A DNA stretch of 22,998 nt, from positions 1 to 22,998 of IMG/VR virus record IMGVR_UViG_3300009314_000090, one strand, 5' to 3'. The stretch is from a virus. A model generated the notes under the pieces. That model ran no database searches and was not told the origin of the DNA. It worked only from the letters and a program-made list of their open reading frames with translations. Shown in pieces: positions 5,489-21,753 of the stretch. How positions within the stretch are numbered: the stretch's first letter is position 1; every line of letters begins with the position of its first letter. The translations under genes were made by a program, and so were the position numbers.

Positions 5489-6460
5489 CTACGCCAGGCT
5501 GTTCGCCAGGAACGCACCGAGCGCGGTTGCGGTCGTCTGCATGGATACGTGCAAGTCACCCTCAACCCGATCAGCCCGCCTTTCCTTCATGCGGAACTTC
5601 TGTATGGCGAACCCTTCTTTGTTGGTGCCCGGCATTCCTGTCCAGGTGATGCTCATCCCGGCTGTCTTGCTGTCTATCGCTACATTCGGCTCTACGTAGC
5701 AGAGCAGCATACCCTCGGACGTGGCTATATCAACCACGTTCGGGGCTGCGGGGTTCGCGCTGTTGTTGTATACCGCGTCGGCCCGATACACGTTGTCGAG
5801 CTCCATCAACTCAGCGATGATCTCTAGAGAAATCGATTTGCTGCTTGTGTACTTGGTTCTGTCCAGCACCGTGGAGTGGTTCTTGAGCACCGGCCATACG
5901 TCGGGCGCAATCACCAGCGTGTTCGGGCGCAAGCCGGAAAGGGCGCGCATCTGTTCTGTCAGATTTGCAATGTCCGTCACCGGATCTGATCCCGCTACGT
6001 TCCACTGCAAGAACTGGTTTGCGGCAGGGGCAGCCCCTACGCCGGTCCAGTCCGTATCCCAGATGCCCGCGCCGAAGAAGTTGGCAACCCAGTCAAGCTC
6101 CTTGCGGGTAAGCAGGATGCGCATTACGTACCGCACCGCGTTCTGGTCGAGCCTGAGAACGGAGTCTGCGTTCGCTCTCTCCGGGTCCGTCACCATCTTG
6201 TGATGTGCGTAGGGAACGCAGAAATAAGCGGCGGTTGACACGCGGAAATCTGACCCTGAGCTCTCAGCGCCGGGTGCTCGTACAGTTGCCAGATCACGCA
6301 TATAGTCTGCTGCGTTGTGGATGAAATACTGGCCGCCCTGAATCTTGACGGGCACGGTAGGGAATACCTTGCCAGCGATGAAGGCGCTCTCTTCCTGTAG
6401 CACCTGAAGCGAAAAGTTGGTCAGAGGCGCTGAAACATACACTTGACTCGGCTGGGGCAT
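5489..6460 (-). CDS. Major capsid protein
   Basis: A 323-residue protein, typical length for an HK97-fold major capsid protein. Its N-terminus (PLTNFSLQVLQEESAFIAGK, then VFPTVPVKIQGGQYF) is the pattern seen in phage major capsid proteins that lack a large cleaved delta domain. Later segments fit the same fold: NTLVIAPDVWPVLKNHSTVL in the A-domain region, and ITWTGMPGTNKEGFAIQKFR near the C-terminus. It is preceded by scaffold and decoration-type genes and followed by the connector. The ATG follows AGGAGGGTGTC, a strong ribosome site suited to a highly expressed product. The virion shell location is known for the family; the processing site, if any, is not visible. Confidence 0.9.
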   Translation of the reverse strand: MPQPSQVYVSAPLTNFSLQVLQEESAFIAGKVFPTVPVKIQGGQYFIHNAADYMRDLATVRAPGAESSGSDFRVSTAAYFCVPYAHHKMVTDPERANADSVLRLDQNAVRYVMRILLTRKELDWVANFFGAGIWDTDWTGVGAAPAANQFLQWNVAGSDPVTDIANLTEQMRALSGLRPNTLVIAPDVWPVLKNHSTVLDRTKYTSSKSISLEIIAELMELDNVYRADAVYNNSANPAAPNVVDIATSEGMLLCYVEPNVAIDSKTAGMSITWTGMPGTNKEGFAIQKFRMKERRADRVEGDLHVSMQTTATALGAFLANSLA

Positions 6461-6536: not shown

Positions 6537-7895
6537 CTACTGCCCGATGATGATGTAGTTCACCTTCTTGCTGAATGTGGTGGCCGCCACCAGCGTATTG
6601 GGTGCAGCCTCATTCAGTTCCCATGTCTTGATCTTGATGTCCGTGCCAGAAATCTCACAGGTTGCGAATTCGGCTTCCGCGGTAATCGGGTCGGAGTCCA
6701 TGACTGCTATTGCAGACAGAATAGTGGTCATCCCACTTGCCACGGTATCGACAGCATTAACGGTAGTATGCTGTGCGGCCTTGAGCAAATACCCTGCCGC
6801 TGCTGGTGCCACAACGACGTTGCCTGCGTCCTGATAGCCGTGCAACAGGACGTAGATCAGATTGCCTGCTCCGGCTGTATCTTCCAGGGCTATGCCCAAC
6901 CTGTAGTATCCGTCCGATGCCACGGCCGGTTGCACGCGCCCAGTCGCGTCTACGTATACTTCATTGCCAAGCGCCACCAGAGCGCCGGAAAGCACCTTCA
7001 CCACACCGGCAACGGCTATCTCGGCTGTCACAGCATTCGGCGCGTTCAGCAGTACGCCCAGTGAAATGGCACCTGCCACACTCGACAGCAAGCATTCGTT
7101 GTCGCTAGCGCCGATCTTCACGCACTTGCCGATATCGGCTGAAAGGTCTGCACCAGCCGTCATCTCGTGAACCACGGTCTCGGGGTAGTAGGTATGCGGA
7201 CACACCACCATAGTGAATGAGGCGTCAGCTACCGCGCTATCGACTGCAATGCCCACAGCATGCTTGCCACCCAGGTATCCGGCGAGTCGGCCCTTACCAG
7301 CAGCATCAGGAACGATAGAATCGCCACGAGTGACGGTATCGCCGGCAGTGCATTCGACCATGCCGCTTACTGCGATGTAGGCGGGATCATTGTTGAGCGA
7401 TGTGACAGCGCAAACGCCAATCGGTTTGTCACCGGCACCAGCGGTCTTGGCATCGCCGTCCGCAGTACCGCTTGTCACGATCAGCCCGGCAGTGATTCCG
7501 CCATCATCAGTCAGACGCTCGATTCCAACGTTGTCATACTGCCCGCACGTAACCAGCATAGAAAACAAAGAACCCGCAGTGGCTGCTTCCAGAGCAATTC
7601 CTACCCGGTAGCCGTCTCCGCTCTGAGTCTGGAGGGTGCCTGTTGCGGTGGACTCTACATTGTCATTTGCGCTGATAGTGCCTCCAGCCATGGCAATGGT
7701 CACGCCAGACACACAAACCTCAGCACCTCGCCCGGCTGCGGCAGGGATTCCCTGGAGAATGCCCACACACTTGCCCGCGAGCGTCCCGACGTTGACAGTA
7801 TCAGCGGCAGTGAGTCGTACCGCGTGGTACTGAGCAGCCGACAAATCAGCGGCAGCCTTGAATGATACGACCTTTTGAGCTTCGTTCCTGGGCAT
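6537..7895 (-). CDS. Three-repeat capsid decoration-like protein (DUF2190-type repeats plus C-terminal domain)
   Basis: A 452-residue protein built from three related beta-rich segments, roughly residues 10-118, 133-233 and 243-354. Each carries a signature of the type GDxVxxxATGxLxxxxGxGYRxGIALExA followed by a closing strand (seen as SGDGYRVGIALEAATAGSLF in the first and SDGYYRLGIALEDTAGAGNL in the third). This signature is typical of DUF2190 proteins that decorate phage capsids. A separate C-terminal domain (about 360-452) reads VASGMTTILSAIAVMDSDP then KIKTWELNE and TTFSKKVNYIIIGQ, a module I recognise as recurrent in phage head clusters. The start follows GGAGGGGAAAC. Location between scaffold and major capsid genes supports a capsid-surface role. 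Most family members have a single repeat. Confidence 0.75.
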   Translation of the reverse strand: MPRNEAQKVVSFKAAADLSAAQYHAVRLTAADTVNVGTLAGKCVGILQGIPAAAGRGAEVCVSGVTIAMAGGTISANDNVESTATGTLQTQSGDGYRVGIALEAATAGSLFSMLVTCGQYDNVGIERLTDDGGITAGLIVTSGTADGDAKTAGAGDKPIGVCAVTSLNNDPAYIAVSGMVECTAGDTVTRGDSIVPDAAGKGRLAGYLGGKHAVGIAVDSAVADASFTMVVCPHTYYPETVVHEMTAGADLSADIGKCVKIGASDNECLLSSVAGAISLGVLLNAPNAVTAEIAVAGVVKVLSGALVALGNEVYVDATGRVQPAVASDGYYRLGIALEDTAGAGNLIYVLLHGYQDAGNVVVAPAAAGYLLKAAQHTTVNAVDTVASGMTTILSAIAVMDSDPITAEAEFATCEISGTDIKIKTWELNEAAPNTLVAATTFSKKVNYIIIGQ

Positions 7896-7947
7896 GTTTC
7901 CCCTCCGGTGATTTCAATATTCAGTCATGCCCCGCAGGGCATTGTGC

Positions 7948-8856
7948 TTACTGCATGTCCTCTGCTCTGCGTGCGGAGGCCAGACGTTCTTTCTCGTATC
8001 GCAGATACAAGGCTTCGTCCTGCTCCAGTATCCGGCGCTCGGCCTCGCCATACGTCATTTTCGGATCGGCAGTGACCAACGCCTCTGCCCTGCTTCGGAT
8101 GATGGCCGCGGCGCTGTTGGGATCAGAACCACCGGCCCCGGAACCCACCTCGCCAAACAGGGCAGAGCGCTTGATAACTGCATCAATGCCGCGCAGGAAG
8201 GTCATCGCCTTGTCATACAGGCCCTTCTTGCCGTCTGCGTGCCGCAGAATCTCGACGATCACGGCATCTTCGCCCGGCACATCAGGGATGGAAGAAACAG
8301 CGCGCTGGATTTCGCCGGTGCGCTTGTCCTCTTCCATGCGCGTGATCCTCTCTTCGTTCTCTTTGGTGCGCGTCCACAAGGCAGACAGGGCCGAATGCTG
8401 TGACCGTTCCACCTTGGACAGATCCAACTCCCCGTTGGCGTCGAGAATCAGGCCCATGCTGCGGGCGAGTTTCTGCTCCGCGCTCTCTTCTGCCGGGACT
8501 TCGACACGCACTTCCTTTTCAGTCGTGGGTAGTTCAAACCCAAGCGCCTTGAACAGGGCCACGGCCCCGTCATTGTCAAGCTTCGCTGCCCGGCAGAGAC
8601 GCGCAACCGAAACCAGGGTATCGGCGTTGTCCCCTTCAGCCAGAGATCCAAGCGCCCGCGTGACTTCCGGGTCAACGTCTGCGGTCAGCAAGTCGAAAAT
8701 TGCGCCCATCGCTTCTGTGACGTCATATTCTTTCTGCGGCATGTCTTGCCCTCCCTGGGAGCGGAAAAGTAATACCTTGCGCCCGTTGGATGGCTGGTTG
8801 TCATCATCCAACAGGGCCAGTTTGGTTACGATGATGTGATTGAGGTCATCGCTCAT
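7948..8856 (-). CDS. Capsid scaffolding protein with XkdF-tail-like N-terminus
   Basis: About 302 residues, strongly charged and mostly helical, as expected for a scaffold (TKENEERITRMEEDKRTGEI; EAERRILEQDEALYLRYEKE). The N-terminus VTKLALLDDDNQPSNGRKVL, then LFRS, resembles the final strand of XkdF-type proteases (hydrophobic-ALVD-x-AN-x-R-x-LL-x-KS), which is normally fused to the protease. I give the ATG at 8856, which includes this segment. The ATG at 8742 has a much better ribosome site (GGGAGGGCAAGAC) and may start a 264-residue scaffold-only product. The scaffold is expected to guide capsid assembly and leave before maturation. It sits directly upstream of the decoration and major capsid genes. 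Confidence 0.78.
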   Translation of the reverse strand: MSDDLNHIIVTKLALLDDDNQPSNGRKVLLFRSQGGQDMPQKEYDVTEAMGAIFDLLTADVDPEVTRALGSLAEGDNADTLVSVARLCRAAKLDNDGAVALFKALGFELPTTEKEVRVEVPAEESAEQKLARSMGLILDANGELDLSKVERSQHSALSALWTRTKENEERITRMEEDKRTGEIQRAVSSIPDVPGEDAVIVEILRHADGKKGLYDKAMTFLRGIDAVIKRSALFGEVGSGAGGSDPNSAAAIIRSRAEALVTADPKMTYGEAERRILEQDEALYLRYEKERLASARRAEDMQ

Positions 8857-8890
8857 GCGTACAAGGATATGGGCACATTGCCGCACTGGT

Positions 8891-8931
8891 CTACATTTTT
8901 GTAGGGATAAAATCTGCACCCCGTAGGGGTG
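8891..8931 (-). terminator. Two adjacent hairpins between the MerR-like and scaffold genes
   Basis: On the minus strand the first hairpin is CACCCC-TAC-GGGGTG (8931-8917), followed by CAGATTTTATC. The second is CTACA-AAAA-TGTAG (8904-8891). The first plus its T-rich tail could be a weak intrinsic terminator or an attenuator that lowers read-through from upstream genes. The pair occupies most of the 92-base gap. The GTG in the first stem is a possible but poorly supported start for the scaffold frame. Confidence 0.4.
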
Positions 8932-8948
8932 TCTAGCGCGAGCACTGC

Positions 8949-9515
8949 CTATGGGATAAGCAGCACCGCCTTCTGAGTCATCCGGTTTACCCGGTCAAAC
9001 GGCTCTCGTCGGGATACCAAACGCACGCCGTTGGCTGTGAGCAGCGTCACCTTATCTGGGCTGGCGTGGTGGCGCATCCTGACTGCCGCGGCGACACTCT
9101 CTAGAGACAACAATGCCCTTACTTCCGCTGCGGTGGCCTGAATGGCGTTGATCAACTCTACGTCCGACTGTGCCCAGAATGACGGTGAACCCTGCTTTCT
9201 GCTCGGGCGGATGGACGGGGCTATCAGGCCTTTTGTTTGCCACTGTGACAGGGCTGGCTCTGACAGTCCGGTCATTTCTGACACTTGGGCGGTACTGAGT
9301 GCCCCGGACGGCCGGAGCAGTGATGTCAGTTCGGGTAGTGCTGGCCCGGAAGGGTGCCCGGCCTTATCTTCAGCTTCAGCCTCAGCTTCAGCCTCAGCTT
9401 CAGCTTCAGCCTTGGCTTCCGCTTTGGCTTTGGCCTCGGCCTTGACCTTCATGGCCGCTTTCCGTGCCGCTTTTTCCTCTTCCGTCAGTTTTCTTCGTTG
9501 CTTCCTTTTCGCCAT
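8949..9515 (-). CDS. MerR-like helix-turn-helix protein with Ala/Glu-repeat N-terminal coil
   Basis: A 188-residue protein in two parts. Residues 1-52 are a highly charged Lys/Ala/Glu stretch (KLTEEEKAARKAAMKVKAEA, then alternating Ala-Glu), probably an extended helix. Residues about 73-105 (LSTAQVSEMTGLSEPALSQW, then QTKGLIAPS) form the helix-turn-helix plus wing of the MerR type, followed by FWAQSDVELINAIQA, matching the fold that follows the wing in MerR proteins. Family members bind DNA and control transcription; a role at a phage promoter or in DNA packaging is inference. It starts with ATG after GGAGG that lies inside the last codons of the protease gene. A DNA-binding protein placed between protease and scaffold genes is unusual. 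Confidence 0.75.
   Translation of the reverse strand: MAKRKQRRKLTEEEKAARKAAMKVKAEAKAKAEAKAEAEAEAEAEAEAEDKAGHPSGPALPELTSLLRPSGALSTAQVSEMTGLSEPALSQWQTKGLIAPSIRPSRKQGSPSFWAQSDVELINAIQATAAEVRALLSLESVAAAVRMRHHASPDKVTLLTANGVRLVSRREPFDRVNRMTQKAVLLIP
9369..9412. repeat. Hexanucleotide repeats encoding alternating Ala-Glu
   Basis: About seven copies of a six-base unit (GCTGAA or GCTGAG on the coding strand) encode the AEAEAEAE stretch of the MerR-like protein. Slippage would add or remove whole Ala-Glu pairs without shifting the frame, so coil length could vary among relatives while the DNA-binding domain stays intact. Confidence 0.85.
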
Positions 9516-9517
9516 GG

Positions 9518-10357
9518 TTATCCTCCTTGTGGCACGGGAAAGCCCTCTATTGAGACGCCGGTACAGGCACGTTCGAAGTGCTCAAACGCGTCTTTGTCCG
9601 ACACAAAACCGCCTACTATCCATGCCGCCTTACCCAGAACCTCGCCTGTCTGATGGAATATACCGCTGCGCTCTATCCAGCACTCTACCGGCACTACCTC
9701 AATATCCTGACCCCGATGATTGAGGTTGAATGCCCGGCTGTCTCGCATCCATTCATGACACCACCGTTCAACGGTGGCTTCGTCTGCATGAGTGTCGTGG
9801 GCGTCCTTGATCGGGTTCTCGTCATCAGCCTCGTAGGCCATGACGTAGAGGATCTGCAACTTCTCGTCGGCTCTCAATACCCTCTGTCCGCTCCTTGTGA
9901 CGCTAGCGAGCAGTTCGCGTGCTTTGTCCTGTAGTGTCGCCTTCTTCTCTGTCGTGAGGCCTGGTGCGTTGCTCTGGGGGATTCGCCCTATGGCGTTGCG
10001 TGCATGCGAGGCATCTACCTTGCCTTCAGCATTCTTGACCGGAAAGTGCCGCTTGTTGCGTGGTGTTGTTTTGCCTTCGCTGTCTTTTTCGCCACCGCTC
10101 TCGATGTAGAGAAAGCTACTGTCCGGCAAGTCGTTGATGTATTTCGTTGTCCAGACTGCCCTCTCTGTTTCGGCAGATCCCCGAGGGGGTAGTGCTGCAA
10201 TCAGTGCCGTCTTTGCCTTTTGACTCAATGCCGCCCAGTCTTCATCGGAAAGGCCATGGTGTGCCTTGGCTCTTTCTTCATCGGTTCTGGGGCCTTCTCG
10301 TGTAGTGACCGTGACACGGATCGTTGGGGTTGTCGTAGTTCTGACTATAATCTTCAT
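9518..10357 (-). CDS. XkdF-type prohead serine protease (peptidase S78_2-like)
   Basis: A 279-residue protein. Residues about 70-150 form a module with DLPDSSFLYIESGGEKDSEG and RHFPV and ARNAIGRIPQ, often fused to such proteases. Residues about 165-275 match the XkdF protease domain: ILYVMAYEADDENPIKDAHD, then FNLNHRG with His214, then WIVGGFVSD, then TGVSIEGF with Ser269. His214 and Ser269 are the likely catalytic pair. The protein should cleave scaffold and capsid proteins inside the prohead. It stops at GFPVPQGG; relatives usually continue with a final strand like the one found at the start of the scaffold gene. The start follows AGGAGAGCG. The next gene starts three bases after the stop. 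Confidence 0.85.
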   Translation of the reverse strand: MKIIVRTTTTPTIRVTVTTREGPRTDEERAKAHHGLSDEDWAALSQKAKTALIAALPPRGSAETERAVWTTKYINDLPDSSFLYIESGGEKDSEGKTTPRNKRHFPVKNAEGKVDASHARNAIGRIPQSNAPGLTTEKKATLQDKARELLASVTRSGQRVLRADEKLQILYVMAYEADDENPIKDAHDTHADEATVERWCHEWMRDSRAFNLNHRGQDIEVVPVECWIERSGIFHQTGEVLGKAAWIVGGFVSDKDAFEHFERACTGVSIEGFPVPQGG

Positions 10358-10364
10358 CGCTCTC

Positions 10365-11270
10365 CTATCTGTCCAGCGTCACTACGCATCGACACTGTAT
10401 GTGAATCGGCGGGGCTACTACACCGCCGGTGAACTGCTTTCCGACAACAACAGACTCGGAATTTAGCGGCCCGCATTGAGGGCACACCCTCTCGTCAGTG
10501 GCCGTGCGCCAAGTGTGCGTTTGATTCTTGGGTAGAATGCCGTCGGCTATCAATTGCAGTCGCGTCTCGTATCTGCCACGGTTCAACGCCGTCATGGTCT
10601 CTGTCCGGGCGATACTCTCGGCCCGTTGCTTCAGCATCTTGGTGGCTGCCCGAGCCATGCGCTTGTCTACCTGGGTCTTGGGTATTCCTTGCGCGGTCCA
10701 GGTAGCTCCGCGGCGTCTCAGGGCGGCGGATTGTCGGCTCGTCAGTCCCACGAAGTCACCCTTGACCGTCTCTGCCATTTCCAAAGCTGACCGGATTGGC
10801 ACTTCTGCATCATAAGGGTGCCTTCCTGTTCTGATTGCGTCCCGCACGACGGAAAGAATCGCCGCTTTCGTAGTCTTGTCGATTTCCTTGATCCTGCGAG
10901 CAGTGTGTTCCTTGAGCCATGCCTTGACGTGAAGGGCGGCAGGATTGAACAGATAGCCACCTTCTAGTGCAAGCTCTCCAAGCTCTACGTCTGAGGCTGC
11001 TACCATGGCTTGCTCTACCTGCATCGGTAGTTGCCTTGCAAGCGTTGCCGTCAGGCTGATTTCCGACGCGTCCATGCCCAACTTGACGCTTCGCACTTCG
11101 ATTGCATGTGCTAGTGACTCCACGTCCACCGCGCTCTTTGCCGCGGCAAATGATGTCAGCACAGTTCTTCGCATCGCCCGCTCAGTAGATGCGGCCAAGG
11201 CCAAGAAACGCTCAGACCAGCCAGGATCAAGACGGTGAGGGGTGAGTGCTCGTTGTATCGCGGGACTCAT
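10365..11270 (-). CDS. MuF-like minor head protein (SPP1 gp7 family)
   Basis: A 301-residue protein whose C-terminal 100 residues carry the MuF signature: RAESIARTETMTALNRGRYE, then HTWRTATDERVCPQCGPLN, and finally PPIHIQCRC. The Cys pairs (CPQC and CRC with a His before) resemble a metal site seen in this family. MuF proteins sit on or near the portal inside the head and may be ejected with DNA. The N-terminal two thirds is helical. The ATG at 11270 overlaps the previous stop as ATGA, which fixes the start; the longer open frame upstream is a shadow of the small basic gene. It lies between portal and protease genes, the usual location. Confidence 0.9.
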   Translation of the reverse strand: MSPAIQRALTPHRLDPGWSERFLALAASTERAMRRTVLTSFAAAKSAVDVESLAHAIEVRSVKLGMDASEISLTATLARQLPMQVEQAMVAASDVELGELALEGGYLFNPAALHVKAWLKEHTARRIKEIDKTTKAAILSVVRDAIRTGRHPYDAEVPIRSALEMAETVKGDFVGLTSRQSAALRRRGATWTAQGIPKTQVDKRMARAATKMLKQRAESIARTETMTALNRGRYETRLQLIADGILPKNQTHTWRTATDERVCPQCGPLNSESVVVGKQFTGGVVAPPIHIQCRCVVTLDR

Positions 11271-11518
11271 GTCGTCGTCGTCTTCCTTGCCTTGGATTTT
11301 GCCTTCTTCTTCGGCTTGGCTGTTGCCTTGCCCTTGGGTTTCGGTAGTTTCGGTGCTGCTTCTGGTTTCGGCTCTGGGCGCGCCTTCATCGTCAAGACCT
11401 TGATCACTGATTCGGCATGCAACCAGTTCTTGCAGTGCGCCAGGGCCTCGCCCGTCTCGGTATTGAAGACGGTGTGTGTTCCGAGGGGGCCGCACGGGTC
11501 GATTGCATATTTGCCCAT
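11267..11518 (-). CDS. Small protein with histone H1-like basic tail, function unknown
   Basis: An 83-residue protein. Residues 1-45 (MGKYAIDPCGPLGTHTVFNT, then ETGEALAHCKNWLHAESVIK) form a small neutral domain. The rest is a Lys/Pro/Ala-rich tail (PKPKGKATAKPKKKAKSKAR) resembling histone H1 C-termini and likely to bind DNA non-specifically. It has a strong ribosome site (AAGGAGGAGTAGGCA) and is coupled to the portal gene (gap of three bases) and the MuF gene (ATGA overlap), so it is a real member of the head operon. A role at the portal-DNA interface or inside the head is plausible but unproven. I do not recognise the N-terminal part as a named family. Confidence 0.82.
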   Translation of the reverse strand: MGKYAIDPCGPLGTHTVFNTETGEALAHCKNWLHAESVIKVLTMKARPEPKPEAAPKLPKPKGKATAKPKKKAKSKARKTTTT

Positions 11519-15860: not shown

Positions 15861-17606
15861 CTATTCGATCCAAGCGTCAAATCCGGCTGAGACAGCGCCT
15901 GCGCCGCCGAGTGACTGAGAGCGGATCGATACTATTCCCTGTGCTGGTACTTCAATGGGTGACTCCAGTCTGACAACCCCCGAGTCACTTTTCAGTACTC
16001 GCTGATACGCGAGCAAATACGGCGAGGTGGGTGAGGCCTGGACGAATACAGCGATCTTGCTGGCATCGGCTGCGACCTCGGAGCCGTGTATGGTGTGTAT
16101 CTTGAGATTTTCCCCGGACGCTACTGGATACCGGGCTGCTGCTGATTCATTGTCATACGGCATCATGACGAGCATCTTGGTAGCCCCGTCATTTTTATAC
16201 AGGGTGATCGTACCCTCGTTGGCGAAGGACGTACCGACTGTGATTACCTCCATCTTCCATGCGTGTAAGCAATTCTGGGTCATCGTTACGGCTGCTACCC
16301 CATTCATGGTGATGGTTTCGGTTTGCTGTGCCCAGGCCCCGTCTACGCAGTATACTTTGACTGTTCTGGCCCCGTTGCCCACAGGTGCTCCGTCGTCATC
16401 TGCATCATCACTCTTGATTTTGTGAAGTTCCTGTGCTGCGAGTTGCGGGATTACTCCCGTATCTGACCAAACGTCTTCCCACGTAGCCCCTACAGCAGTG
16501 TTGTACCCGTACATTGACAGGGCAGTAACGCCCGTCATTTCTCCGTCTACCACGGCTTGCCCGTAGTCTCTGATCGTCACTTGATACTGACTGCCTGCCA
16601 CGTCGCAGAGGTTGCCCGATCCGTCTTCGAGGGCGGTAGAGAGGGCTCCAGTCTGGCTATCAATGACGTTGCCTGCTCCGTCTTGGGTGCGGCTGCTCCA
16701 GTTGCCCGATTGAGTTGCGGCCACTGTGCCGTCTATGGTGATGGTGTTGCCCCCATCCTGTATGTTCACTGCGGCTCCGGCCCCTGCATTGTCCACAGTG
16801 ACGTTGTGGCCGTCTGGCAGTTGAGCGGCATTTGTTGCGGCTCCGGCTGGTAATGGCAGGGCCGCGGCTGAGACAGGCTGAGTGACTTGCCAGAATGTGC
16901 CGTCTACAGTCAGACTCCCGGCACCGTCATCTACTGAGACAAGGCCCGTGCTATCGTTGGCAAGGGTGACGCGGAGGGCAGTGGCTTCAGCCCCGCCGCC
17001 CACCACTACGAGAGAATCCGTGTTTGTCTCCACTGTAGCAAGGGTGACTTCGGTCGCCACTTTTCCGTCAATGGACGTGGTGTCTGCCAGGATTGCCGTC
17101 GTGTCAGCAAGAATCGCCGTTGTATCTACGAGGATCGCGGCGGACGTGACCTCTGTCCCGAGAGTGGCAGCCGTTGCCTCTGTTGCGACTTTTCCATCAA
17201 TGCTGGTAGTATCAACCAAGATCCCGGCAACATCAATAGAAGTCAAATTGAGGGTCGTTTCTGTTGCTACATCAACCAGATTCCCTGCTCCGTCCTCTTG
17301 GACGACGGCCAGCGCCCCGGTACGGCTGTCTATCGCGTTGCCGGCCCCATCCCTGACATTTACGTCTATTCCGCCGGCGGGGAACGCGGTAATGGCTACG
17401 TGGAGTGCATCGCCGGTACTTCCGAGACTCACCCCAGACCCATCTGACATGTAGCACTGCTGCGAGGGTAGCCCGGTTACTGAATCGACGACAATAATAT
17501 GCCACTCGTTGTCATCGCCCATGAAGCGGTAGATATCGGCACCCTGGGCGGTTGTGGGCAGTAGCAGCATAATCGCCGTCAGGAAAAACAGGACTGTTCG
17601 TTTCAT
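15861..17606 (-). CDS. Repeat-rich protein with signal peptide, fibre- or decoration-like
   Basis: A 581-residue protein. Residues 1-22 (MKRTVLFFLTAIMLLLPTTA then QG) form a clear Sec signal peptide, with a likely cut after AQG before ADIY. Residues about 75-330 contain degenerate repeats of the type DGAGNxxDxxTGAL and TTSIDGKVATEATLAT, as in extended virion fibre stalks. The C-terminal part (about 350-581) holds strands such as TETITMNGVAAVTMTQNCLH and EGTITLYKNDGATKMLVMMP and resembles an immunoglobulin-like or receptor-facing domain. The ATG follows GGAGGACCTC. It has its own promoter. Structural phage proteins normally lack signal peptides, so it may be an envelope- or surface-directed factor (for example superinfection exclusion), or a virion protein that carries a leader. 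Function is not assigned. Confidence 0.78.
   Translation of the reverse strand: MKRTVLFFLTAIMLLLPTTAQGADIYRFMGDDNEWHIIVVDSVTGLPSQQCYMSDGSGVSLGSTGDALHVAITAFPAGGIDVNVRDGAGNAIDSRTGALAVVQEDGAGNLVDVATETTLNLTSIDVAGILVDTTSIDGKVATEATAATLGTEVTSAAILVDTTAILADTTAILADTTSIDGKVATEVTLATVETNTDSLVVVGGGAEATALRVTLANDSTGLVSVDDGAGSLTVDGTFWQVTQPVSAAALPLPAGAATNAAQLPDGHNVTVDNAGAGAAVNIQDGGNTITIDGTVAATQSGNWSSRTQDGAGNVIDSQTGALSTALEDGSGNLCDVAGSQYQVTIRDYGQAVVDGEMTGVTALSMYGYNTAVGATWEDVWSDTGVIPQLAAQELHKIKSDDADDDGAPVGNGARTVKVYCVDGAWAQQTETITMNGVAAVTMTQNCLHAWKMEVITVGTSFANEGTITLYKNDGATKMLVMMPYDNESAAARYPVASGENLKIHTIHGSEVAADASKIAVFVQASPTSPYLLAYQRVLKSDSGVVRLESPIEVPAQGIVSIRSQSLGGAGAVSAGFDAWIE
17080..17142. repeat. Three 21-base tandem repeats in the secreted protein gene
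   Basis: Three consecutive 21-base units (17080-17100, 17101-17121, 17122-17142) encode the peptide series AAILVDT, TAILADT, TAILADT. Unit similarity is high and each unit is seven codons, so copy changes keep the frame. A longer diverged repeat of the neighbouring TTSIDGKVATE segment flanks this block. Confidence 0.8.
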
Positions 17607-17629
17607 GAGGTCCTCCATTGTCTGCTGGT

Positions 17630-20074: not shown

Positions 20075-20378
20075 CACTATCCTCCTCAATCTGAGCTTCG
20101 GCCCAAGCTAGCCAACATTCATCACAGCCCAAAACGCGAGAGTTGCCCACTTCGTCTGGCTCGGAGGTCGGGCAGTCTTCATCAAGAGGTAGCGGGCAAA
20201 TATCCGTTTTTGCCAATTGCTGTTCGTCTGTGGCCTGAACTAACTTTTTGAGCAGTACAACGAGTATCCTCAACAAAAGCCGTCTGTCCTTGCAGGCCTG
20301 CGGAACTGTACTCCAATCCCCCCGTCGTACTCTGTCCAACTGCTCGTCTCTTCTTTTGATTTTGTCGATTTTGCTCAT
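20067..20378 (-). CDS. Small phage protein, function unknown
   Basis: A 103-residue protein starting MSKIDKIKRRDEQLDRVRRG. The first half is basic and helical (LLLRILVVLLKKLVQATDEQ). The second has two Cys pairs (CPLPLDEDCP and CDECW) with acidic residues. The ATG overlaps the methyltransferase stop as ATGA, so translation is likely coupled; the ribosome site (AGTAAGAAG) is weak. No family recognised. Confidence 0.65.
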   Translation of the reverse strand: MSKIDKIKRRDEQLDRVRRGDWSTVPQACKDRRLLLRILVVLLKKLVQATDEQQLAKTDICPLPLDEDCPTSEPDEVGNSRVLGCDECWLAWAEAQIEEDSDA

Positions 20379-20944
20379 CTTCTTACTAACCCTCCGTCTC
20401 TGTCAAAGCTGAGAACATGCGGACACCAATATGCCTCTCTCGTGCTCGCTTCTACGCAACTCTCCCGAAAATACACAAGCAAGCTCGCATGATTCGGACT
20501 TCCGAGCGGTGCCCCGTCTCGCCAGAAGTCAATTCGGCCCCTTACTGGATAGATCGCTGTAGCTCCTGGTCCACCGTCGTTTATGATCAGGTCGTGAAAC
20601 CACGCGTACTCCGACTTCTTCGCCGGGAACAGACAGAGCGTTGAGCACCTGCCGGCAAGTGCTTCAGCAAGCGCCTTGGCGACGATTGGTCCTATCAGGC
20701 CCTCTGCATAGGGAGGATTGCAGAAGGCCCTTGATGGGCAGTCTATGTCGCCCCACTGCCGCGTAAGGCAGTCATCGCCTATGGTGAAGTACCGGACGCA
20801 CTTGGCCGTTGCCGGACTGGCACATACATCAAGGTCGAACGGCCCGAAGGCCCTGTCGAGCAGGGCGAAGAACGCCGGTGGCGTCTCCAGGTCGTTGTCG
20901 TATCCTTGGCCCCGTCTCGGCGGGTGTGTGAGTTGGAACGTCAT
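20375..20944 (-). CDS. Phage DNA N6-adenine methyltransferase (Dam-like)
   Basis: A 189-residue protein of the phage Dam type (PF05869-like). It has ETPPAFFALLDRAFGPFDLD near residues 20-39 (an AdoMet-side region), then CASP, and the catalytic-type NPPY at 76-79 in the segment FCNPPYAEGLIGPIVAKALA. Further conserved blocks are LFPAKKSEYAWFHDLI and PVRGRIDFW and GSPNHASLLVYF. It would methylate adenine N6 in phage or host DNA, plausibly to protect from restriction or mark replication. The ATG at 20944 has a strong ribosome site (GAGGAGGAATAGG) and overlaps the upstream stop (ATGA). The target sequence is not deducible here. Confidence 0.88.
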   Translation of the reverse strand: MTFQLTHPPRRGQGYDNDLETPPAFFALLDRAFGPFDLDVCASPATAKCVRYFTIGDDCLTRQWGDIDCPSRAFCNPPYAEGLIGPIVAKALAEALAGRCSTLCLFPAKKSEYAWFHDLIINDGGPGATAIYPVRGRIDFWRDGAPLGSPNHASLLVYFRESCVEASTREAYWCPHVLSFDRDGGLVRR

Positions 20945-21753
20945 CCTATTCCTCCTCGCCTCCATGCTGGCAATCGTATTAGTTGCTCCTCTGTCACAAC
21001 AGTGCCCCTTTCTCGTAATTCGCAAGCGAACTTGTGCAGCATCCTCGGGACACTGCTTGACCCTGCGCTATATCCGATACGGTAATTCACGTATTCAGCG
21101 ACCTCTTCAACGGTATCCAGGCTCATGGCTGCCCGGAGCAGACGGAGACACTTGAGGAGTGTCAACGGGTTGTCTTTTGCACGCCACTTACGCAGGCCTT
21201 CGTTGATGGTTTTGGCAAATACTCTGCTTGTTCTGTGATCGCACTTCATGCCAAGCTGAAGCAAAAATGCCTCCCGTTGAGCAGTGTCCGTTTCTTGTAG
21301 TTCACCAACCCGGTGAAACTTGAACCTGTCAGATTTTCCGATTCTCTCCAGTCCAAACCAGCCCGCTGGCAGTTCTTCTTGATGAATCAGACCGGAAGGA
21401 TACGCCACTATCAACAGATTCGCCGGGTTGGTGAACTGGCACTCGGCAGGAGGCCACTTATATCCGAAATCTTTGCGAAAATCAGAGCGAGACACTTTGA
21501 CCTCAACAACCGCTGTCAGATAGCCTCTGTCGGCTACAGACTCCGACAATCCAGGCACATTCAGCAGTCTCATTTCGGTATCTGTGGGGATGATTGCTCC
21601 CGCCACATCTGCACGCCATGTGCGTGTACGTGTGAGATGGTCCACGCCCTCACTGTCAGGGAAACGCGGTTCTACGTAAGAGCAGACCGGCACCTCCACT
21701 TCCACAGGCTTGAATCCCTTGCCGCGCAGCCAATCGATGACAAGCGCAGTCAT
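20941..21753 (-). CDS. MmcB-like PD-(D/E)XK nuclease family protein
   Basis: About 270 residues. The core has WRADVAGA with the catalytic Asp (residue 49 from the ATG used), then TAVVEVKVSRSDFRKDFGYK with the E-x-K pair (84 and 86), and NLLIVAYPSG with a supporting strand, the D...ExK arrangement of PD-(D/E)XK enzymes. The VVEVKxSRxDFxxD stretch is the signature of MmcB-like DNA repair proteins. A helical C-terminal region follows (INEGLRKWRAKDNPLTLLKC). The ATG at 21753 follows AGAGGAGACGGC; GTG starts at 21783 and 21789 are also possible. It is flanked by helicase and methyltransferase genes, which suggests replication or repair. Target is inferred, not shown. Confidence 0.78.
   Translation of the reverse strand: MTALVIDWLRGKGFKPVEVEVPVCSYVEPRFPDSEGVDHLTRTRTWRADVAGAIIPTDTEMRLLNVPGLSESVADRGYLTAVVEVKVSRSDFRKDFGYKWPPAECQFTNPANLLIVAYPSGLIHQEELPAGWFGLERIGKSDRFKFHRVGELQETDTAQREAFLLQLGMKCDHRTSRVFAKTINEGLRKWRAKDNPLTLLKCLRLLRAAMSLDTVEEVAEYVNYRIGYSAGSSSVPRMLHKFACELRERGTVVTEEQLIRLPAWRRGGIG

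Follow-up and report, generated by a model that had tools for sequence, protein, structure and literature searches.

A small MerR-type gene in the head module of an uncultured phage was, with a probability of about 0.85, added between two genes that had long been separate, those of the prohead protease and the scaffold, at a site of the module where extra genes recur. The window (the whole stretch of DNA analysed, an IMG/VR virus record of 22,998 bases) holds an ordinary tailed-phage head gene module of MuF, protease, scaffold, cement and major capsid protein (MCP). These genes belong to a minus-strand late block in the order TerL, portal (Portal_Mu), MuF, XkdF-type protease, MerR-type gene, scaffold, cement protein and MCP. 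Our reading builds on observed gene order, homologies, motif conservation and recurrence of inserts. The features concerned are as follows.

10365..11495, minus strand: MuF-like head morphogenesis gene (PF04233), upstream of the protease
9518..10357, minus strand: prohead protease ORF, XkdF-type, 279 aa; Peptidase_S78_2 at aa 160-273, N-terminal accessory domain at aa ~63-150
8949..9515, minus strand: MerR-type winged-HTH gene, complete, 188 aa; predicted HTH at aa ~74-127
8917..8931, minus strand: terminator-like hairpin CACCCC-TAC-GGGGTG, then CAGATTTTAT
8891..8904, minus strand: hairpin CTACA-AAAA-TGTAG, the second hairpin 3' of the MerR-type gene
7948..8856, minus strand: scaffold ORF, 302 aa, most likely start ATG 8856; phrog_17741 at the C-terminus
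8770..8829, minus strand: conserved scaffold N-terminal motif VTKLALLDDDNQPSNGRKVL, scaffold residues 10-29
6537..7895, minus strand: cement/decoration-like gene, three matches to phrog_673, downstream of the scaffold
5489..6460, minus strand: MCP (phrog_1005), the query used for finding relatives

The cement-like protein (6537-7895, 452 aa) consists of three diverged copies of one unit and is matched three times by phrog_673; the unit measures ~110-130 aa in many relatives, and copies 1 and 3 of the window align well. Elsewhere in the window, a phage N-6-adenine methyltransferase is found at 20375-21025 in the downstream region (TIGR01712, E 1.7e-14, under the curated cut-off), and a 585-aa ORF at 15861-17618, upstream of the terminase genes, seems to carry a signal peptide and contains DTTxI/DGAGN segments in repeats.

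The protease ends in ...GVSIEGFPVPQGG* (GFPVPQGG), with its stop codon at 9520-9518. PF14550 (Peptidase_S78_2, XkdF) matches it at aa 160-273 with 42.2 bits against a cut-off of 24 (E 9.4e-11), and D37 and the catalytic H66 and S121 (aligned-domain numbering), invariant across 35 sequences, are all present. The enzyme would work on the scaffold within the procapsid. Unlike in Lactococcus phage 98201, where they form one polypeptide, protease and scaffold occupy separate ORFs in the window. The N-terminal domain of the protease (WTTKYINDLPDSSF...ARNAIGRIPQS; window 9900-10170, aa ~63-150) is mobile. Across the relatives covered (L001, L002, L003, L004-L019, L020 and L030), it occurs alone in ORFs of ~150 aa, N-terminally in further protease-scaffold ORFs and, in Thermoanaerobacterium phage THSA-485A, after the motif; in L050 a ChaB domain replaces it. 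XkdF-type proteases are also widely labelled DNA methyltransferase in public phage records (Pseudomonas K8, LPS-5 and others) and in the description of PHROG phrog_1530, apparently a propagated misannotation.

As the original prediction had it, the protease stops at GFPVPQGG and is followed by a complete MerR-like gene (ORFs 10357-9518 and 9515-8949). The latter begins 2 bp after the protease stop, and its strong Shine-Dalgarno sequence, AAGGAGG, is made of the last protease codons. The Pfam matches of its product to MerR (E 1.8e-4) and MerR_1 (21.5 bits against 21.6) both lie just under the gathering scores, and a core tblastn search retrieves plasmid genes annotated MerR (best E 1e-3). Among the nearest matches of the putative HTH are CarH, HspR and CueR, with CarH and CueR among the PDB matches, while the first 60 residues are A/E/K-rich and of low complexity; the HTH assignment from sequence is weak but consistent. 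The GC content of the gene (0.587) matches that of the neighbouring head genes (0.548-0.589), so base composition does not point to a late acquisition. A promoter scan just upstream recognised no sigma-70-like site, nor was a target promoter for the protein recognised. The full-length protein found no match by tblastn against phages, and no counterpart of the gene was found in the same slot or module of the relatives examined. Since none of the relatives proved to have a MerR gene at this place, we infer the role of this cargo from the predicted fold only, and that role is most likely regulatory. The protein would most likely be a cargo regulator, translated off the late head transcript via the ribosome site that the final protease codons provide.

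Two hairpins had been described after the MerR-like gene, and both are there, at 8931-8917 and 8904-8891 on the minus strand (fold z -2.24). The former, directly after the gene and with a weak T-run, is the sole minus-strand terminator-like site within 7800-10500. A full terminator at this position would cut scaffold expression, which makes partial read-through or stabilisation of RNA the likelier role; the hairpin may lessen read-through or stabilise the upstream RNA. No Shine-Dalgarno sequence is visible ahead of the scaffold start codon at 8856, whereas many other genes of the block have one; the two hairpins lie just upstream of this codon.

From ATG 8856 the scaffold begins MSDDLNHIIVTKLALLDDDNQPSNGRKVLLFRS, and its N-terminus carries VTKLALLDDDNQPSNGRKVLLFRS. 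It has phmmer homologues in related contigs (L050, 1e-13; L043, 8e-13; L045, grouped with L113, 2e-12) and matches phrog_17741 at E 5.6e-6, which places it with the phrog_17741/13547 scaffold type. A tblastn search of the scaffold against phages gave no match, and single-protein scans of viral contigs with the scaffold, MerR or portal query returned nothing. A short motif HMM built from 15 sequences does not detect the window motif because of a 3-residue insertion in its turn (LLDDDNQPSN vs LVD---EGAN), and the significance of the motif was therefore taken from pairwise alignment and shuffles. Aligned with the scaffold N-termini of ten relatives (examples are MPNKLTNIDVAEVSLVRKPANKRAFLIYKA and MSSKLTDLVITKVALVDEGSCSDAHIKLYKRK), the first 40 aa score 337, where shuffles average 187 (SD 17.5). 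This is 8.6 SD over the shuffles, none of 2000 of which reaches it, and 40-residue stretches from elsewhere in the window scaffold do not exceed 260. The resemblance exceeds chance, and the conserved segment that had been noticed at the start of the scaffold is confirmed at residues 10-29 (8829-8770). The scaffold would open with a conserved motif retained from an older protease-scaffold unit.

Whether the boundary between the two genes is old was read from relatives collected through the capsid protein, namely annotated phages, 80 IMG/VR loci and 4 loci from bacterial genome bins. An alignment-based scan of the collection with nine MCPs yielded no stretch conserved enough, so three MCPs were used. 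When protease and motif profiles were run over all ORFs of the relatives, 55 loci (window not counted) had both features. Not one of these joins the protease to the motif-bearing scaffold in a single ORF, and the motif always stands at the start of the scaffold ORF. All 55 proteases end without the motif, usually a few residues past FS-I/V-x-G and 4-11 residues past the conserved match; some continue with other C-terminal sequence, never with the motif. In 21 loci, the gap between the two genes is -16 to 62 bp and nothing is inserted. Such tight junctions occur in phages of Rhizobium, Pseudomonas, Enterobacter, Klebsiella and Erythrobacter (for example RHph_Y52, Mulvp2, RSP and KP13-27) and in close scaffold relatives of the window (L050 and L045/L113). 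Vibrio 1.250.O also has separate, adjacent protease and scaffold genes. In rV5-like DrSchubert, the head scaffold follows the prohead protease with a 1 bp overlap, and K8 and ICP1 encode the two proteins separately (in ICP1, capsid protease gp125 and scaffold gp124). Pairwise scores of the rV5 and ICP1 scaffold N-termini are near chance, so these phages were used for gene order only. Because the boundary exists without an insert in the 21 loci and in rV5-like and ICP1-like phages, it predates the MerR gene and is independent of it. Protease and scaffold would have been separate neighbours since before the window lineage arose.

The original prediction was that the MerR gene had been inserted into a single protease-scaffold ORF, splitting it at the final protease strand. 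One-ORF units do exist, since THSA-485A carries protease, motif and scaffold in one 661-aa ORF, and the window junction falls precisely at the passage from the FSI-type end to the motif. However, the same junction is an insert-free gene boundary in 21 loci of many phage groups and in rV5-like phages, K8 and ICP1, and the other 34 loci, which have gaps, keep the boundary at the same point whatever the gap holds. Relatives with the same protease end and scaffold start and no inserted gene thus count directly against a split, which we consider very improbable in the window. What survives is the addition of a gene at the junction and the kinship of the motif to segments of protease-scaffold polypeptides; the splitting of one ORF does not, as the two genes are separate in 55 of 55 loci. 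Our result corrects this misleading split-gene reading of the locus. As a general cause of the protease/scaffold boundary, splitting by insertion is refuted by the insert-free boundaries in diverse phages.

The junction itself has changed state repeatedly. In 34 of the 55 loci, 250-2776 bp lie between protease and scaffold, and the ORFs in these gaps, where callable, are mostly of unknown kind, unrelated, and different between clades. On the MCP tree, the tight or inserted label needs six changes, five of them forced by supported branches. These repeated changes, together with the unrelated gap genes, make the junction a recurrent cargo slot of which the MerR gene is one occupant; within this capsid lineage, additional genes recur there. 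In L043, the same junction (L043:5658-6791) holds a 378-aa gene without a Pfam or PHROG match. Given that the MerR gene is absent from the relatives and that tight junctions occur in deep branches, gain is likelier than loss; the window sits on a long branch of the MCP tree, which fixes neither its closest sister nor the date of insertion. Like a moron, the MerR gene is absent from the same place in relatives, 21 of which have tight junctions and the others different genes. It is a cargo gene in a phage head operon, a kind already known. A role of the MerR-like protein as a true head or late-gene component would agree with its co-orientation, the 2 bp gap, the strong Shine-Dalgarno sequence and a GC content like that of its neighbours; but no relative examined carries the gene in this module and the slot holds unrelated genes elsewhere, so we regard such a role as improbable.

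The original prediction also held that in XkdF-type units the protease is followed by a strand with the motif. This order is not general. In Lactococcus phage 98201 (fused XkdF type, 349 aa), the motif precedes the protease (motif HMM at residues 2-32, E 1.5e-7; protease at 43-149), giving the order motif, protease, scaffold. The 661-aa ORF of THSA-485A, in the order protease, motif, scaffold, is the sole case of a motif after the protease in one chain; here a Peptidase_S78 (PF04586) match below the Pfam cut-off spans the motif up to profile position 155 of 165. The separate scaffold of L042 has an N-terminus that matches phrog_80 (351-389) and phrog_21715 (117-177), the segment after the catalytic serine, as well as the XkdF N-terminus (phrog_3017, 2-36); separate scaffolds give PHROG matches of marginal significance (E 8e-5 to 1e-2). 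Of the scaffold N-termini of six sipho-type relatives, five reach z 5-9 against the THSA-485A segment (the sixth, L049, only 0.5), and all six reach z 5-11 against the XkdF N-terminus, whereas the window motif aligns with the THSA-485A segment weakly (z 2.1). By sequence resemblance, then, the motif may precede the protease, follow it or lie on the neighbouring gene. Such a distribution would suit either a strand completing the protease irrespective of how the two are linked or a docking tag of the scaffold.

A plain N-terminal docking tag for protease, portal or coat, lying outside the protease fold and with the XkdF protease inserted behind it, has in our judgement about an even chance. In the separate and XkdF types alike, the polypeptide that bears the scaffold carries the motif at its N-terminus. 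In addition, ICP1 gp124 assembles particles and scaffolds the coat protein when expressed without its protease (PMC10945586), so the scaffold role is independent of the protease. Less easily accommodated by a tag is the presence of the same segment directly after the catalytic strand in THSA-485A and in the Peptidase_S78 profiles. It is possible, though doubtful, that the motif represents the final conserved piece of the S78 fold, transferred to the scaffold gene, and completes the protease in trans, the enzyme being docked or active only where the scaffold is. The PF04586 match across the THSA-485A motif, the L042 matches after the catalytic serine and the alignments of the sipho-type N-termini would fit such completion, as would the varied placement of the motif, which a permutable structural element would show. 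Against it stand the weak window alignment, the marginal PHROG E-values and the barely alignable rV5- and ICP1-type scaffold N-termini. AlphaFold2 modelling also gave it no help: the window protease domain with 34 relatives reached pLDDT 69 and no PDB match, and the one-chain THSA-485A homologue, with a 2-row alignment, gave pLDDT 39, which is not usable. An alignment mixing protease and motif rows set FSIGG on EVSVV and was left out of folding. Sequence searches of the PDB with both proteases gave no match, and a literature search on split or permuted prohead proteases found nothing on point. We think it unlikely that throughout a large set of phages the scaffold-gene start encodes the last S78-type protease segment, with the scaffold completing the protease in trans and confining docking or activation of the enzyme to the interior of the scaffold core. 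That the motif occurs on either side of the protease or on a different gene makes a simple testable case of a protease fold completed by its own scaffold.

Among known systems, the window is close in layout to siphophages such as Pseudomonas RSP, Enterobacter Mulvp2 and Rhizobium RHph_Y52 (MCP 33-36% identical), which share its gene order, a protease ending after FS-I/V-GG and a scaffold starting with the motif, but have no gene between protease and scaffold and a shorter cement protein. DrSchubert (rV5-like), the Pakpunavirus K8 and ICP1 likewise encode protease and scaffold in separate, adjacent genes, with genes for decoration and coat proteins next in line and PF14550 in the rV5-like phage; they differ in being myophages with divergent scaffold N-termini and no insert. 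Lactococcus 98201 combines a PF14550 protease, the motif and a scaffold-like C-terminus, as the window does, but in one ORF with the motif N-terminal, before the protease. The THSA-485A protein resembles the window in having the protease and then the motif, and in its WTTKYINDLPDSSF domain, but it is one ORF and its protease is closer to Peptidase_S78. Like morons and late-operon cargo genes, the window MerR gene is an additional, unrelated gene lodged among conserved head genes, is missing from relatives and is followed by a terminator-like hairpin; unlike morons, it has no own promoter detected and no compositional difference.
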